From Roseivivax lentus (lineage in GTDB: Bacteria; Pseudomonadota; Alphaproteobacteria; Rhodobacterales; Rhodobacteraceae): a stretch of 64,000 nucleotides of DNA. Location of the stretch: assembly GCF_900156805.1 (NCBI RefSeq), contig NZ_FTOQ01000002.1, positions 558,001 to 622,000 on the forward strand, written 5' to 3'. The first letter of the stretch is position 1. Every line of letters begins with the position of its first letter. Below, in pieces: positions 25,561 to 33,673 of this stretch. The notes under the pieces are model-generated. The model was not told the DNA's origin and searched no databases. It was given only the letters and a program-made list of their open reading frames with translations. A program made the position numbers and the translations under genes.

Positions 25561-26703
25561 TCAATGCCCGCGCCAGATCCATCCGCCGCCCAGGATGCGG
25601 CTGCCGCCGGTTTCGTAGAACACGCAGGCCTGGCCCGGCGAGACACCTTCCTCGGGGCTGAGAAGTTCGACCTCCGCCTCGGTCGCCGAGAGCGGGCGGA
25701 TCACCGCCTCGCGCGGGGGACGGGTGGAGCGGACCTTGACCGAGACATGCCATTCGGCCCGGCTCTCGAAGGCCGCATCGCCCAGCCAGTTGATCTCGCG
25801 CACCGGGATGGTGCGGGTGGCGAGCAGGCTTTTCGGGCCGACGATCACGCGTTTCGCGTCGACGTCGAGCCGGACGACGTAGAGCGGCTCGTCGAGGCCG
25901 CCGATGCCGAGGCCGCGGCGCTGGCCGATCGTGTAATGGATCACGCCCTTGTGGCTGCCGAGAACGCGGCCATCGGCATGCACGATCTCGCCCGGCTCCG
26001 CAGCACCCGGGCGCAGTTTCTCGATCACCGCCGCGTAATTGCCGTCGGGCACGAAGCAGATGTCCTGGCTGTCGGGCTTGTCGGCCACCGTGAGCCCGTA
26101 TTTCGCCGCGAGCGCCCGGGTCGCGTCCTTCGAGGGCAGGTGGCCCAGCGGGAAGCGCAGGTAGTCGAGCTGCTCGGGCGTCGTGGAGAACAGGAAGTAG
26201 GACTGGTCGCGATTGGCATTGGCGGCTGAATGCAGCTCCGGCCCCGCCGCACCCATCTTGCGCTGGATGTAATGGCCGGTCGCCATGCAATCGGCGTCGA
26301 GATCGCGGGCGGTCGCCAGGAGGTCCTTGAACTTCACCCGCTCGTTGCAGCGGATGCAGGGCACCGGCGTCGCGCCACCGAGATAGCTTTCGGCAAACTC
26401 GTCGATCACCGCGTCGCGGAAGATGTTCTCGTAATCGAGCACGTAATGGGGAAAGCCCATCTCCTCGGCCACGCGGCGGGCGTCGTGGATGTCGATGCCG
26501 GCGCAGCAGGCGCCCTTCTTGGCCAGGGCCGCGCCATGGTCGTAAAGCTGCAGCGTCACGCCCACCACGTCGTAGCCTTCCTCGGCCAGCTGGGCGGCCA
26601 CGACCGAGCTGTCCACGCCGCCCGACATGGCGACCACCACGCGCGTCTCGGACGGGGGTTTCGCGAAGCCGAGGGAATTCGGGGTCGATGCGTCGAAGGC
26701 CAT
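25561..26703 (-). CDS. mnmA: tRNA-specific 2-thiouridylase
   Basis: A 380-residue MnmA, which thiolates U34 of tRNA-Lys, -Glu and -Gln. The PP-loop SGGVDSS lies at 27-33, the catalytic Cys pair at C116 (PCIRCN) and C216 (SQDICFV). Length is normal. It converges with the ketoacyl synthase gene and is divergent from sciP with a 137-nt gap. Confidence 0.96.
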
Positions 26704-26809
26704 GTTCTTCCTGCCAGCTGGAGCGTTGGGTAAGACCGGCGGAATATATGAAAATCCAACCTATTCTCAAGGGCGCGGTTCATGCAGCGTTAAGCGCGGC
26801 TGCGCGAGG

Positions 26810-26838
26810 GTCTGATCCGGACGAACAAGGGATCAGAC
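26810..26838 (+). promoter_or_regulatory. Hairpin masking the sciP ribosome site
   Basis: Perfect 9-bp arms GTCTGATCC (26810-26818) and GGATCAGAC (26830-26838) with an 11-nt loop. The 3' arm ends 2 nt before the sciP ATG and includes most of the AAGGGA Shine-Dalgarno sequence. Folding should block translation of sciP. Confidence 0.65.
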
Positions 26839-26840
26839 GG

Positions 26841-27119
26841 ATGTACCTCAAAAGGATCGATGGGCCGCGGGCGGTGCGGTTGCCGGATGGCAGCACGATG
26901 ACACGGGCGGACCTGCCGCCGGGCGATACGCAGCGCTGGGTGGCCTCGCGCAAGCTGGCGGTGGTGAAGGCGGTGCTGTTCGGGCTGATCACCGAGGCCC
27001 AGGCGCAGGAGCTTTATGCGCTGTCCGAGGAAGAGTTGCAGGAATGGATCGGTGCTGCGCGGATGCACGGCCCGGATGCCCTGAAAACAACAGCTTTGCA
27101 GAAATATCGACAACTTTAG
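26841..27119 (+). CDS. sciP: CtrA inhibitor SciP (DUF1153)
   Basis: A 92-residue DUF1153 protein. MYLKRIDGPRAVRLPDG followed by a helix-turn-helix region (RWVASRKLAVVKAV, then LITEAQAQELYALSEEEL) is the SciP signature. In Caulobacter SciP binds CtrA and stops it activating promoters in G1 cells. Here it lies 96 nt upstream of ctrA itself in the same orientation. An in-frame ATG at 26688 exists but lies across the mnmA promoter and lacks family similarity. Confidence 0.92.
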   Translation: MYLKRIDGPRAVRLPDGSTMTRADLPPGDTQRWVASRKLAVVKAVLFGLITEAQAQELYALSEEELQEWIGAARMHGPDALKTTALQKYRQL

Positions 27120-27215: not shown

Positions 27216-27932
27216 ATGCGTGTTCTACTCGTCGAAGACGATCTGACGACGTCCAAGAGCATCGAAATGATGCTTACCCATGCGAACCTGAACGTCTATG
27301 CGACGGATATGGGGGAAGAGGGCGTCGATCTTGCGAAGCTTTACGATTACGACCTCATTCTGCTCGATATCAACCTGCCCGATATCACCGGTCATGACGT
27401 GCTGCGGCAATTGCGCACGGCGCGGATCAACACGCCGATCCTGATCCTGTCGGGCGACGATGATACCGAAAGCAAGCTGAAAAGCTTCGGATTCGGCGCC
27501 GACGATTACCTCACCAAACCGTTCCACCGCGACGAGCTGGTGGCGCGGATTCACGCGATCATCCGCCGCTCCAAGGGGCATTCGCAATCGGTGATCCGCA
27601 CCGGCAAGATCTCGGTCAATCTCGACGCGAAGACCGTCGAAGTGGGCGACACCCAGGTGCACCTGACCGGCAAGGAATACCAGATGATCGAGCTTCTGAG
27701 CCTGCGCAAGGGCACGACCCTGACCAAGGAGATGTTCCTCAACCATCTCTATGGCGGCATGGACGAGCCGGAATTGAAGATCATCGACGTGTTCATCTGC
27801 AAGTTGCGCAAGAAACTCTCAGTGGCGACCGGCGAGGACAGCTATATCGAGACCGTATGGGGCCGCGGCTACGTGCTGCGCGATCCCGAACCCAATGGCG
27901 AGACCGCCGATCCCATCGCCATCGGCGCCTGA
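27216..27932 (+). CDS. ctrA: Cell-cycle response regulator CtrA
   Basis: A 238-residue OmpR-class regulator: receiver domain with phosphoacceptor D51 (LLDINLP) and K in YLTKPF, then a winged-helix DNA-binding domain. The residues match CtrA closely (MRVLLVEDD, then [12 protein letters not shown] and [22 protein letters not shown] in parts). CtrA controls division, motility and, in Rhodobacteraceae, flagella and gene-transfer-agent genes; there it is generally not essential. The C-terminus lacks the AA degradation tag of Caulobacter CtrA, ending instead in IAIGA. Confidence 0.96.
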
Positions 27933-28005: not shown

Positions 28006-32246
<4,241 letters not shown>

Positions 32247-32276
32247 ACCGGCGCCTGTTCCTCAGTGTTCACGAAT

Positions 32277-32291
32277 GTTCTTAAAAAGTTC
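32277..32291 (+). promoter_or_regulatory. LexA (SOS) box
   Basis: GTTC-TTAAAAA-GTTC is a perfect match to the alphaproteobacterial LexA consensus GTTC-N7-GTTC. Two further GTTC half-sites lie upstream at 32257 and 32267, so the four half-sites are 10, 10 and 11 nt apart, on one face of the helix. The box is 59 nt upstream of the small-protein start and 30 nt past the recG stop. Confidence 0.8.
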
Positions 32292-32349
32292 TTTACAGAA
32301 TCGACCATACGTGAGAACAAAAGAGCAACCAGAACGAAAGGATGCTCCG

Positions 32350-32466
32350 ATGATCCACCAGATCAAGACCACGATCCGCCGCTCCCAGGACACGCTGTGG
32401 ATGGATACGCTTGGCGTGTTGTCGCTGGTCGTCATGCTGGTGGCGGGGCTGCATTTCGGCGCGTGA
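32350..32466 (+). CDS. Small single-helix membrane protein under a LexA box
   Basis: A 38-residue open frame: a basic, amphipathic start (MIHQIKTTIRRSQDTLW) followed by one hydrophobic helix (about 21-36) and a short tail. AAAGGA lies about 10 nt upstream of the ATG. It has its own promoter region with a perfect LexA box and a strong terminator 140 nt later, so it looks like a real SOS-induced gene. By analogy with the 29-residue SOS division inhibitor SidA of Caulobacter it may slow cell division, but there is no clear sequence similarity and this is inference. Confidence 0.7.
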   Translation: MIHQIKTTIRRSQDTLWMDTLGVLSLVVMLVAGLHFGA

Positions 32467-32639
32467 GTCTTCTGTTTCTGCCTGCGTAGCTTGTACCGGA
32501 CCCCTGTTCGACCGCATCCACTGTCCCCGATGCATCGCCACCGACACTGCCTGTCCCCCATGTGCGCGATCCCGAACGTCCCCATTGTCCGCAAGACACG
32601 CCACTGGCCGCTGCGTCCCCCAAGACGCAGCGGTTTTTT
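32467..32639 (+). ncRNA. Possible 3'-UTR-derived small RNA
   Basis: A 170-nt stretch between the small-protein stop and a strong terminator, with no open frame of interest. It contains three similar C-rich motifs: CTGTCCCCGATG (32521), CTGTCCCCCATG (32551) and CGTCCCCATTG (32577). C-rich loops behind small genes are typical of Rhodobacter sRNAs that pair with ribosome sites. It could equally be a simple long 3' UTR. Confidence 0.35.
32608..32639 (+). terminator. Strong intrinsic terminator
   Basis: CCGCTGCGTC, 6-nt loop, GACGCAGCGG, then six T. It ends the SOS small-protein transcript. Confidence 0.92.
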
Positions 32640-32789
32640 CTTGCCATGACGGCGGGGCCGCATGCTGACGTGCCAGCGACGCGCCTGAGCTTTCCTGCCG
32701 GCCAGTCCCTGACCGCATTGCGCTGCGCGCAAACGGCATTCCGGGCAGGCGGACCTGCCCTTCCTGACGCCGTAACTCGAAAGATCCGG

Positions 32790-33242
32790 TTAAGCCGTTT
32801 CGCGCGCGCGGACGATTTCCATCGCCTCCGCCGCCGCATCGAGTGCCAGCATGATCGAGGCATGCCGGTTCTTGTAGGCGGCCGCCGGGCGCAGCACTTC
32901 GAGCCCGTCGAACGGCGCGTCGGGCGCGGGGCCGCCGTCTTTCAGCATCGCCTTGAGCGCATCGCGCGCCGCGGTGATCTGGTCCGCGTCGCAGCCGACG
33001 ATCGCGCCGCCCACGACCGAGGCCGCGGCCTGGCCCAGGGCGCAGGCCTTCACGTCCTGGCCATAGGCCGTCACGCGCCCGTCCGCGACGTTCAGATCGA
33101 CCGTCACGGTTGACCCGCAGAGCGGCGAGCGTTTCTTGACCGTCGCATCCGGCGCCTCCAGCCGCGTGGTGCAGGGGATATCCGCCGCCAGCGCGAGGAT
33201 GCGATCGGAATAGAGCTTGATGAGATCCTGTTCGGCCGACAT
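32790..33242 (-). CDS. IscU/NifU-like Fe-S scaffold family protein lacking one Cys ligand
   Basis: A 150-residue protein of the IscU/NifU-N family. Two of the three cluster-binding cysteines are recognisable: C42 (PLCGST) and C67 (KACALGQ). At the third site, where IscU has HCS, this protein has RHAS, with Ala at 128. It may therefore not hold a cluster in the usual way, or use another residue. ATG 33242 has AAAAGGGA upstream; an ATG at 33296 would add 18 residues. It is divergent from hisI with a 68-nt gap. Confidence 0.75.
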   Translation of the reverse strand: MSAEQDLIKLYSDRILALAADIPCTTRLEAPDATVKKRSPLCGSTVTVDLNVADGRVTAYGQDVKACALGQAAASVVGGAIVGCDADQITAARDALKAMLKDGGPAPDAPFDGLEVLRPAAAYKNRHASIMLALDAAAEAMEIVRARETA

Positions 33243-33310
33243 GGCTTTCCCTTTTCGTGCTTCCTCCATAAATAGGCGTTCGACCCATTTGTGCAAAAAG
33301 GTTTCTTGCC

Positions 33311-33673
33311 ATGACCTTCGATCCCGAGACCTTGGTCTATGACCAGCGCGGCCTTTTGCCGGCCATCGCGCAGGATGCAGAAACGGGCGAGGTCCTCATG
33401 CTGGCTTGGATGAACGCCGAGGCGGTGGCGAAAACGCTTGAAACACACCGCGTAACCTATTGGTCTCGATCGCGAAAAGCGTTCTGGGTGAAGGGCGAGA
33501 CCTCGGGCCACACGCAAGAACTGGTCGAGATGCGCGTCGACTGCGACCGTGATTGCCTGCTGCTCCGTGTGCGACAAAGCGGCCCGGCCTGTCACACCAA
33601 CCGGCGCAGCTGCTTCTATACTGCCATCGAACACGGCGCGGAACGCGAGTTGATGACGCCGATGGTCGAATGA
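33311..33673 (+). CDS. hisI: Phosphoribosyl-AMP cyclohydrolase
   Basis: A 120-residue HisI, third step of histidine synthesis, opening the purine ring of PR-AMP. Signatures: [29 protein letters not shown], the magnesium-binding VDCDRDCLL and the zinc Cys residues in [11 protein letters not shown]. It is a single-function protein without the HisE part and stands away from other his genes, as is common in alphaproteobacteria. Confidence 0.95.

Follow-up and report, generated by a model that had tools for sequence, protein, structure and literature searches.

TisB of Escherichia coli is an SOS-induced membrane peptide, and how division is held back under DNA damage in alphaproteobacteria other than Caulobacter is, to our knowledge, largely open. 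Among the closest described systems, SidA of Caulobacter is a 29-residue, SOS-induced inner-membrane inhibitor of division (PMC4211646), DinQ of E. coli is a further SOS-induced membrane peptide (PMC3567139), and DinR of Klebsiella is an SOS small RNA that is processed from the 3′ end of dinI and represses ftsZ (PMC10907235). In the Rhodobacteraceae themselves, UdsC of Rhodobacter sphaeroides is a 67-nucleotide (nt), RpoHII-dependent small RNA from the 3′ untranslated region (UTR) of RSP_7527 (PMC9779115, PMC8625941). Here we describe a locus 3′ of recG in a 64,000-nt stretch of Roseivivax lentus DNA (contig NZ_FTOQ01000002.1, positions 558,001 to 622,000; hereafter "the window") that shares traits with each of these: a LexA-type operator, a gene for an unnamed 38-residue protein with one predicted membrane helix, and a conserved structured RNA between that gene and its terminator.

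The explanation we favor, at a probability of roughly one half, is a LexA-repressed transcript with two outputs, a division-delaying membrane protein and a base-pairing RNA. LexA would repress the small gene until DNA damage inactivates LexA, and its release, as the box suggests, would clear the tandem GTTC half-site operator that abuts the promoter, giving one short transcript with both products. The first would be an inner-membrane protein of about 40 residues, with its N-terminus inside, one helix and an invariant Asp at the cytoplasmic face, and it would act like SidA, its helix docking on a membrane division protein and septation being delayed. The second, the 3′ RNA, would present C-rich loops that may base-pair with one or more target RNAs, either alone after RNase processing or within the mRNA; DinR would be the nearest precedent for such pairing. 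The features of the locus in the window are these.

29760–32246: recG frame, directly 5′ of the half-site array; the RecG match spans residues 134–828
32257–32270, + strand: two extra GTTC half-sites (32257 and 32267) at N6 spacing, about one helical turn, 5′ of the box
32277–32291, + strand: LexA-type operator GTTC-TTAAAAA-GTTC, a perfect GTTC-N7-GTTC with half-sites at 32277 and 32288
32292–32318, + strand: probable core promoter, TTTACA (32292–32297) abutting the box, then GTGAGAAC (32311–32318)
32337–32342, + strand: purine-rich ribosome-binding site AAAGGA, read from the sequence
32350–32466, + strand: 38-codon frame with ATG at 32350 and stop at 32464–32466, a member of an unnamed family
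32475–32639, + strand: structured 3′ RNA with the 5′ motif UUUCUGCCUGCG (32475–32486), a long-range stem and inner hairpins
32521–32527 and 32547–32557, + strand: loops of the structured 3′ RNA, CUGUCCC and CUGCCUGUCCC, respectively
32606–32635, + strand: intrinsic terminator hairpin of 12 pairs, then a T run

An earlier, sequence-only reading of this DNA had described a perfect box with two further phased half-sites, a ribosome site and a 38-codon frame, and all of these are where it placed them; the spacers of the half-site array, from the starts at 32257, 32267, 32277 and 32288, are N6, N6 and N7. It also had a strong terminator follow the frame. The hairpin exists, but it lies well downstream: the stretch of about 140 nt from the stop codon to it is conserved as a structured, covarying RNA, which had been missed.

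The small frame behind the box is a real gene under amino-acid constraint, as residue conservation, codon-position pattern and the ratio of nonsynonymous to synonymous differences (pN/pS) together indicate. Frames of 28–46 residues could be read at 143 of 147 loci, with 99 of the 143 exactly 40 residues long; at two loci, L120 and L051, the frame is cut by the end of the locus and is not fully readable. The Asp is present in 143/143 and the Gly in 142/143 (Asp19 and Gly22 in window numbering, both invariant in an 85-row alignment), two Leu in 136/143 and 140/142, and a Pro in 137/139. Across the 143 frames, near-duplicate loci kept in, differences at the three codon positions are 0.45, 0.31 and 0.60, the third being the most variable, and pN/pS is 0.56 with pS at 0.665, near saturation.

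Relatives were found by single-sequence search in 95 of 198 genomes of the same family, the window's own included, and a profile of 85 diverse members matched in 175 of these 198 Rhodobacteraceae genomes, nearly always once per genome and in 9/9 genomes of the window's genus; these matches support the earlier description of a short gene beside recG whose product has a basic head and a single helix, predicted to lie in the membrane. When the same profile was run over 385 class-wide genomes it matched in five Rhodobacteraceae genomes (the window's included) and gave one chance-like partial match outside the family, over 17 positions of a 290-residue frame at E = 0.003, and no credible relative outside the Rhodobacteraceae was found among them. 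Members from Paracoccus have a shortened form of about 31–36 residues, and Planktomarina-like members have weak scores. In four Paracoccus relatives of about 31 residues (L036, L086, L106 and L145) the hydrophobic helix and the Asp are retained and most of the basic head is lost; the Gly is present in three of them.

Searches of Pfam and NCBIfam with 85 members gave single-member matches only (best E 0.024 and 0.047), PHROGs gave three unnamed families matched by one or two members each (best E 0.0021) and no named match, and solved structures gave no credible relative (best E 0.84). Rfam 15, searched at permissive E-values with window positions 32200–33000 and 10 loci, gave no match at gathering score, and the best match below threshold lies 5′ of the frame, in the recG part of the loci. 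Annotation from Pfam, NCBIfam and Rfam would therefore give the locus no name, and the open-access literature, within which the search was made (subscription papers and supplements lay outside its scope), holds no description of the small gene or the RNA that we could find.

The alphaproteobacterial LexA consensus is described as GTTC-N7-GTTC, with a single box at about 97% of Caulobacter SOS promoters (PMC12700426). The perfect form occurs once in the whole 64-kb window, where 1.09 copies are expected by chance, and 80 times in the whole genome against 64 for the reversed pattern. At such chance-level counts the sequence alone is no proof, and the case for the box rests on its conservation. 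A perfect box stands 5′ of the small frame in 30/30 of the loci found by protein search (the 30 best among the 95 genomes with a match, including the window's locus); an extra GTTC lies one N6 step 5′ of the box in 29/30 of them and a second, one step further, in 10/30, and GAGAAC follows the second GTTC of the box at a spacing of 25 in 28/30. With Caulobacter SOS promoters mostly single-box, the conserved extra half-site here is unusual. One could suppose that box and frame stand together by chance, about one such box being expected per window; the co-conservation of box, frame and RNA across the family refutes this, and we give it a negligible probability.

As a positive control, an oppositely oriented GTTC-N7-GTTC precedes recA in 22/22 genomes; as background, a box in either orientation was found in 8 of 4000 random 260-nt pieces from 20 dcw regions. 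TTTACA and GTGAGAAC resemble what we take to be the alphaproteobacterial TTGAC...ANAAC promoter type, and four diverged loci (L270, L275, L277 and L283) read GTTC-TTGAC. With a box at its promoter, the small gene carries the operator that characterizes the alphaproteobacterial LexA/SOS regulon, and LexA control is predicted on this basis. An earlier survey gives recG as LexA-regulated in some alphaproteobacteria, and the portion of it available to us does not describe the small gene (PMC3323433).

A second search, with a DNA pattern of box and core promoter only and so blind to the frame, was run over 84,980 species and gave at least 118 matching stretches. Among the 118 matches listed, RecG is 5′ in 115, its end lies within 240 nt in 113, and the small frame is found at E ≤ 1e-3 in 112. 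The pattern was written after inspection of the 30 protein-found loci and the hidden Markov model was built from the same 30; the 30 and the 118 share some genomes, and the 148 are not all distinct. The three matches without RecG are L109 and L124, which have less than 70 nt of upstream sequence, and L135; at L035 and L134 the RecG end is about 545 nt away, and the RecG match at L134 is partial. The sequence-only reading had proposed a search for co-conservation of frame and box 3′ of recG, with absence of either from related genomes as grounds for rejecting its claim; the counts above for box, frame and RecG show the co-conservation, and conservation, not absence, is what the comparison found. 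At one further locus, L006, box, promoter and frame are intact and recG was not found upstream; the module can thus occur apart from recG, and the box is more than an element of recG alone.

Elsewhere in the window's genome, 11 of the 80 boxes were examined and Pfam was run on the frames beside six, which gave mmcB, an alcohol dehydrogenase, release factor 3, an MT-A70 methylase, an OB-fold frame and one frame without a match; from so mixed a set of genes, the box alone is weak evidence. One of these boxes, at 67–81 of L239 (G000:C45:286900-289100), reads GTTCATGAATTGTTC and is immediately 5′ of an mmcB-like DNA-repair gene. At L238 (G000:C45:222300-224500) an AT-spaced GTTC-N7-GTTC is 5′ of a gene of the zinc-binding alcohol dehydrogenase family, possibly an unexpected SOS gene and possibly a chance occurrence.

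In the 3′ RNA the stems covary while the loops CUGCCUG and CUGUCCC persist. A hairpin and T run close the locus at 122/147 loci. At the 54 of 147 loci that pass a strict terminator rule, CTGCCTG occurs 58 times against 3.5 in dinucleotide shuffles and CTGTCCC 51 times against 2.5, their reverse complements occurring 0 times; the motifs were picked after the sequences had been read. Where the 3′ sequence extends over 200 nt or more (141 loci), one or both C-rich motifs are present in 119 and both in 85. The unpaired probability is 0.85 for C residues of the motifs and 0.44 for the remaining C (n = 99), which places the motifs in loops.

Plain alignment with MAFFT and RNAalifold gave no consensus structure from 105 core sequences and the terminator only from 13 (A1), and for this reason an alignment-free comparison of native with cross-species pairing (near-duplicates removed, 115 of 122 kept) and a structure model, R1, were used. 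The strands of the outer stem pair with their own partners at −20.3 kcal/mol and across species at −14.0 (n = 93); for the flanks of CTGTCCC the values are −8.1 and −5.7 (n = 116), and for those of the later CTGCCT −7.9 and −5.0 (n = 93). R1 was seeded from three relatives and gave 39 matches in 70 sources, of which 19, in the right place and at low E, were aligned; L089, which lies elsewhere, and the weaker matches, the window's included, were left out. In this 19-row alignment both partners have changed in 31 of 34 pairs (19.9 in shuffles), and cells with such two-sided changes number 127, compared with 38 for shuffles and no more than 32 for slid partners; the alignment leans towards its own structure, whereas the native-against-cross comparison does not. 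The model is narrow, with matches at E ≤ 0.05 in 9/198 genomes, all nine adjoining the small frame. In the window's genus the exact 5′ motif is present in 8/9 genomes and the outer stem is kept in the consensus. The RNA motif differs in some other genomes, at L002–L004 being of the CUGCCACGUGA type.

Such loops, persisting while the stems around them are rewritten, together with the unpaired probability just given, could mean that the RNA is the main product and the small frame minor or auxiliary, as in dual-function RNAs dominated by the RNA. We think this distinctly unlikely, for the amino-acid constraint is clear, the peptide is found family-wide by profile, and neither exact motif is present in 22/141 loci. 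A further supposition gives the 3′ structure no role in trans, its task being to protect or terminate the mRNA or to bind a protein, and it fits a structure that ends at a strong terminator and for which no long complementary target was found in the window's own genome. A mere stability element would have no need of strand-specific conservation in unpaired loops, and we consider a purely local role somewhat unlikely.

By comparison with described RNAs, the element resembles DinR in lying in the 3′ UTR of a predicted LexA-controlled small-protein mRNA with a terminator at its end, and differs from it in the unrelated mRNA and the multi-loop fold with C-rich loops, no ftsZ complement having been seen; the ftsZ-pairing stretch of DinR belongs to a Klebsiella-specific region, whereas the Rhodobacteraceae RNA spans a family. 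UdsC likewise comes from the 3′ UTR of a small-gene mRNA, and in the same bacterial family, and the accounts of it used here give no LexA link, unlike the LexA control predicted for this locus. Nothing in those accounts suggests that RSP_7527 is the recG-linked small gene, the two being compared by description only.

Several partners for the RNA were tried and rejected. The sole perfect match to GGGACAGGCAG, which would mark a long complementary target in the window's own genome, is the small gene itself, and allowing up to one mismatch yields 125 places, compared with 182 when the pattern is reversed. The 3′ RNA and its own 5′ leader pair no better than across species (native −30.10, cross-species −30.64, n = 122). 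The genes at ftsZ and its dcw neighbors were examined in 20 stretches of 20 kb, each with ftsZ at its end, which gave eight ortholog groups of 19–20 genomes each, ftsZ being the sole group identified by name and the gene starts being approximate; within a group no complementary 7-mer occurred in more than 3 genomes, one reversed control 7-mer was present in 10/20, and in the ftsZ start regions complementary 7-mers were found in at most 2/20.

The pattern CGCAGGCAGAAA gave 69 matches in 24 genomes against 19 for the reversed control, 16 of them at the recG locus. Seven of the 53 matches elsewhere are one conserved hairpin-plus-terminator element, found at L346 (G000:C26:117190-118200), L351, L322, L325, L365, L324 and L320; the other 46 lie inside stop-to-stop frames of at least 525 nt, which in GC-rich DNA is a weak indication of coding. 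The C-terminus of NrdJ, named through annotated relatives, is directly 5′ of the element in 6/7, the window's genome included. GGCCGCAGGCAGAAA, 12 letters of which were the basis for selecting these matches, is common to all seven, and the element carries an exact 12-nt complement of UUUCUGCCUGCG in 7/24 genomes. It gave no Rfam family at gathering score at the four loci searched and no match in viral contigs. The RNA of the same genome offers at least 9 complementary nt in five of the seven, and in the other two (G105 and G065) only the 7-mer CUGCCUG; within the genus the exact element is present in 2/9 genomes, and others (for example G580–G583 and G585) have the RNA motif. In two of the seven the element fails to follow changes of the RNA motif, and few genomes of the genus have its exact form; the lead is weakened by this, and we hold it very doubtful that the 5′ motif pairs with the conserved hairpin after nrdJ, the gene of a B12-dependent ribonucleotide reductase. 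Were that pairing true, DNA damage would be tied to both division and deoxynucleoside triphosphate supply.

In the window the protein has a basic N-terminal segment, Asp19, Gly22 and one predicted membrane helix, and AlphaFold2 gives helices at 2–11 and 13–37 with a mean predicted local distance difference test score of 81 and a predicted template modeling score of 0.41; the model is of a short basic helix separated by a break from a single hydrophobic one. The best 18-residue mean hydropathy is at least 1.6 in 141/142 members. Net charge before the Asp is at least +1 in 113/142, and after it zero in 141/142. By the positive-inside rule, the N-terminus would be cytoplasmic.

The protein is like SidA in being alphaproteobacterial, in its predicted LexA-type GTTC-N7-GTTC control and in being a very short, predicted single-helix membrane protein, and it is unlike SidA in its gene's position 3′ of recG, its Asp/Gly/Pro pattern, its structured 3′ RNA and its confinement, as far as credible relatives go, to the Rhodobacteraceae. 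The sequence-only reading had proposed an unrelated or diverged counterpart of SidA. The former is possible; the latter finds no support, since no credible relative outside the family was found. The profile search of the 385 class-wide genomes, a set in which the inclusion of Caulobacter is not established and which involved no direct comparison with the SidA sequence, found nothing credible outside the family. That the small protein arrests division is in our judgment an even bet.

A different use of the same traits would be a membrane toxin of the TisB/DinQ kind that lowers membrane potential and growth, the 3′ RNA controlling its translation or stability. Size, single helix and SOS-type control fit TisB as well as DinQ in its published description (PMC3567139), and the extra half-site in 29/30 loci suggests a product in need of tight repression, the Caulobacter promoters described being mostly single-box (PMC12700426). 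The gene is near-universal and almost always single-copy in the Rhodobacteraceae, however, and is a core chromosomal gene with a conserved charged residue, unlike those of TisB and DinQ; Asp in 143/143 and Gly in 142/143 suggest a specific partner. The leader and the 3′ RNA pair no better than across species, and no antisense antitoxin RNA was recognized and no sigma-70-like promoter found near the gene, on either strand, in a scan of 31500–33500 that missed the small gene's own promoter too. On balance we judge a toxin unlikely.

Several observations weigh against the reading that we prefer, the two-output, division-delaying transcript. The profile finds no match in 23/198 genomes of the family; recG was searched for in 20 of these 23 and its 3′ end could be read in 14, of which seven keep the box 3′ of recG and seven do not, though several of the seven that keep it show, by eye, an apparent diverged small frame after the box. 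The near-invariant Pro is absent from the window's copy, which reads LHFGA, and no sequence relative of SidA or of any known inhibitor was found. On the RNA side, the exact C-rich motifs are both missing from the 22/141 loci noted above, the 12-nt 5′ motif UUUCUGCCUGCG is exact in 57/147 loci, the outer stem ranks among the top 5% of its cross-pairings at 43/93 loci and the inner stems at 28/116 and 30/93, and no conserved complement was found at the eight dcw gene starts, ftsZ included. The window's own RNA, though matched in the correct place, reaches only E = 8 with R1, so that its structure rests on relatives and on the fold of the window sequence. We put slightly short of even the chance that this family-wide core SOS transcript is a dual-function RNA, encoding a division-delaying micropeptide and acting in trans through its near-identical C-rich loops.

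Protein and RNA each form a new family of a known kind (SOS membrane micropeptide and SOS 3′-UTR RNA), and their combination in one conserved transcript looks new. For the Rhodobacteraceae, a large family with cultured models, the protein is a near-universal single-gene candidate for the control of division at times of damage, open to direct deletion or expression, and the RNA domain in the same transcript may account for half of what the locus does. Should the box function as its sequence suggests, the transcript would join a small number under LexA control that contain a conserved RNA domain.

L279, a recG 3′ end from a small genome, has no GTTC box and yet shows, by eye, a short D..G membrane-type frame; the peptide may there have outlived its operator. 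In the window, the small-gene locus is followed by a convergent gene on the − strand (32790–33296) with a NifU_N match too weak for the Pfam cut-off, and beyond it by a phosphoribosyl-AMP cyclohydrolase gene. About 2–3 kb 5′ of recG are a DUF1153 gene (26688–27119), of what we take to be the family of the CtrA inhibitor SciP, and ctrA (27216–27932, an NCBIfam equivalog), so that cell-cycle genes lie near the SOS gene.
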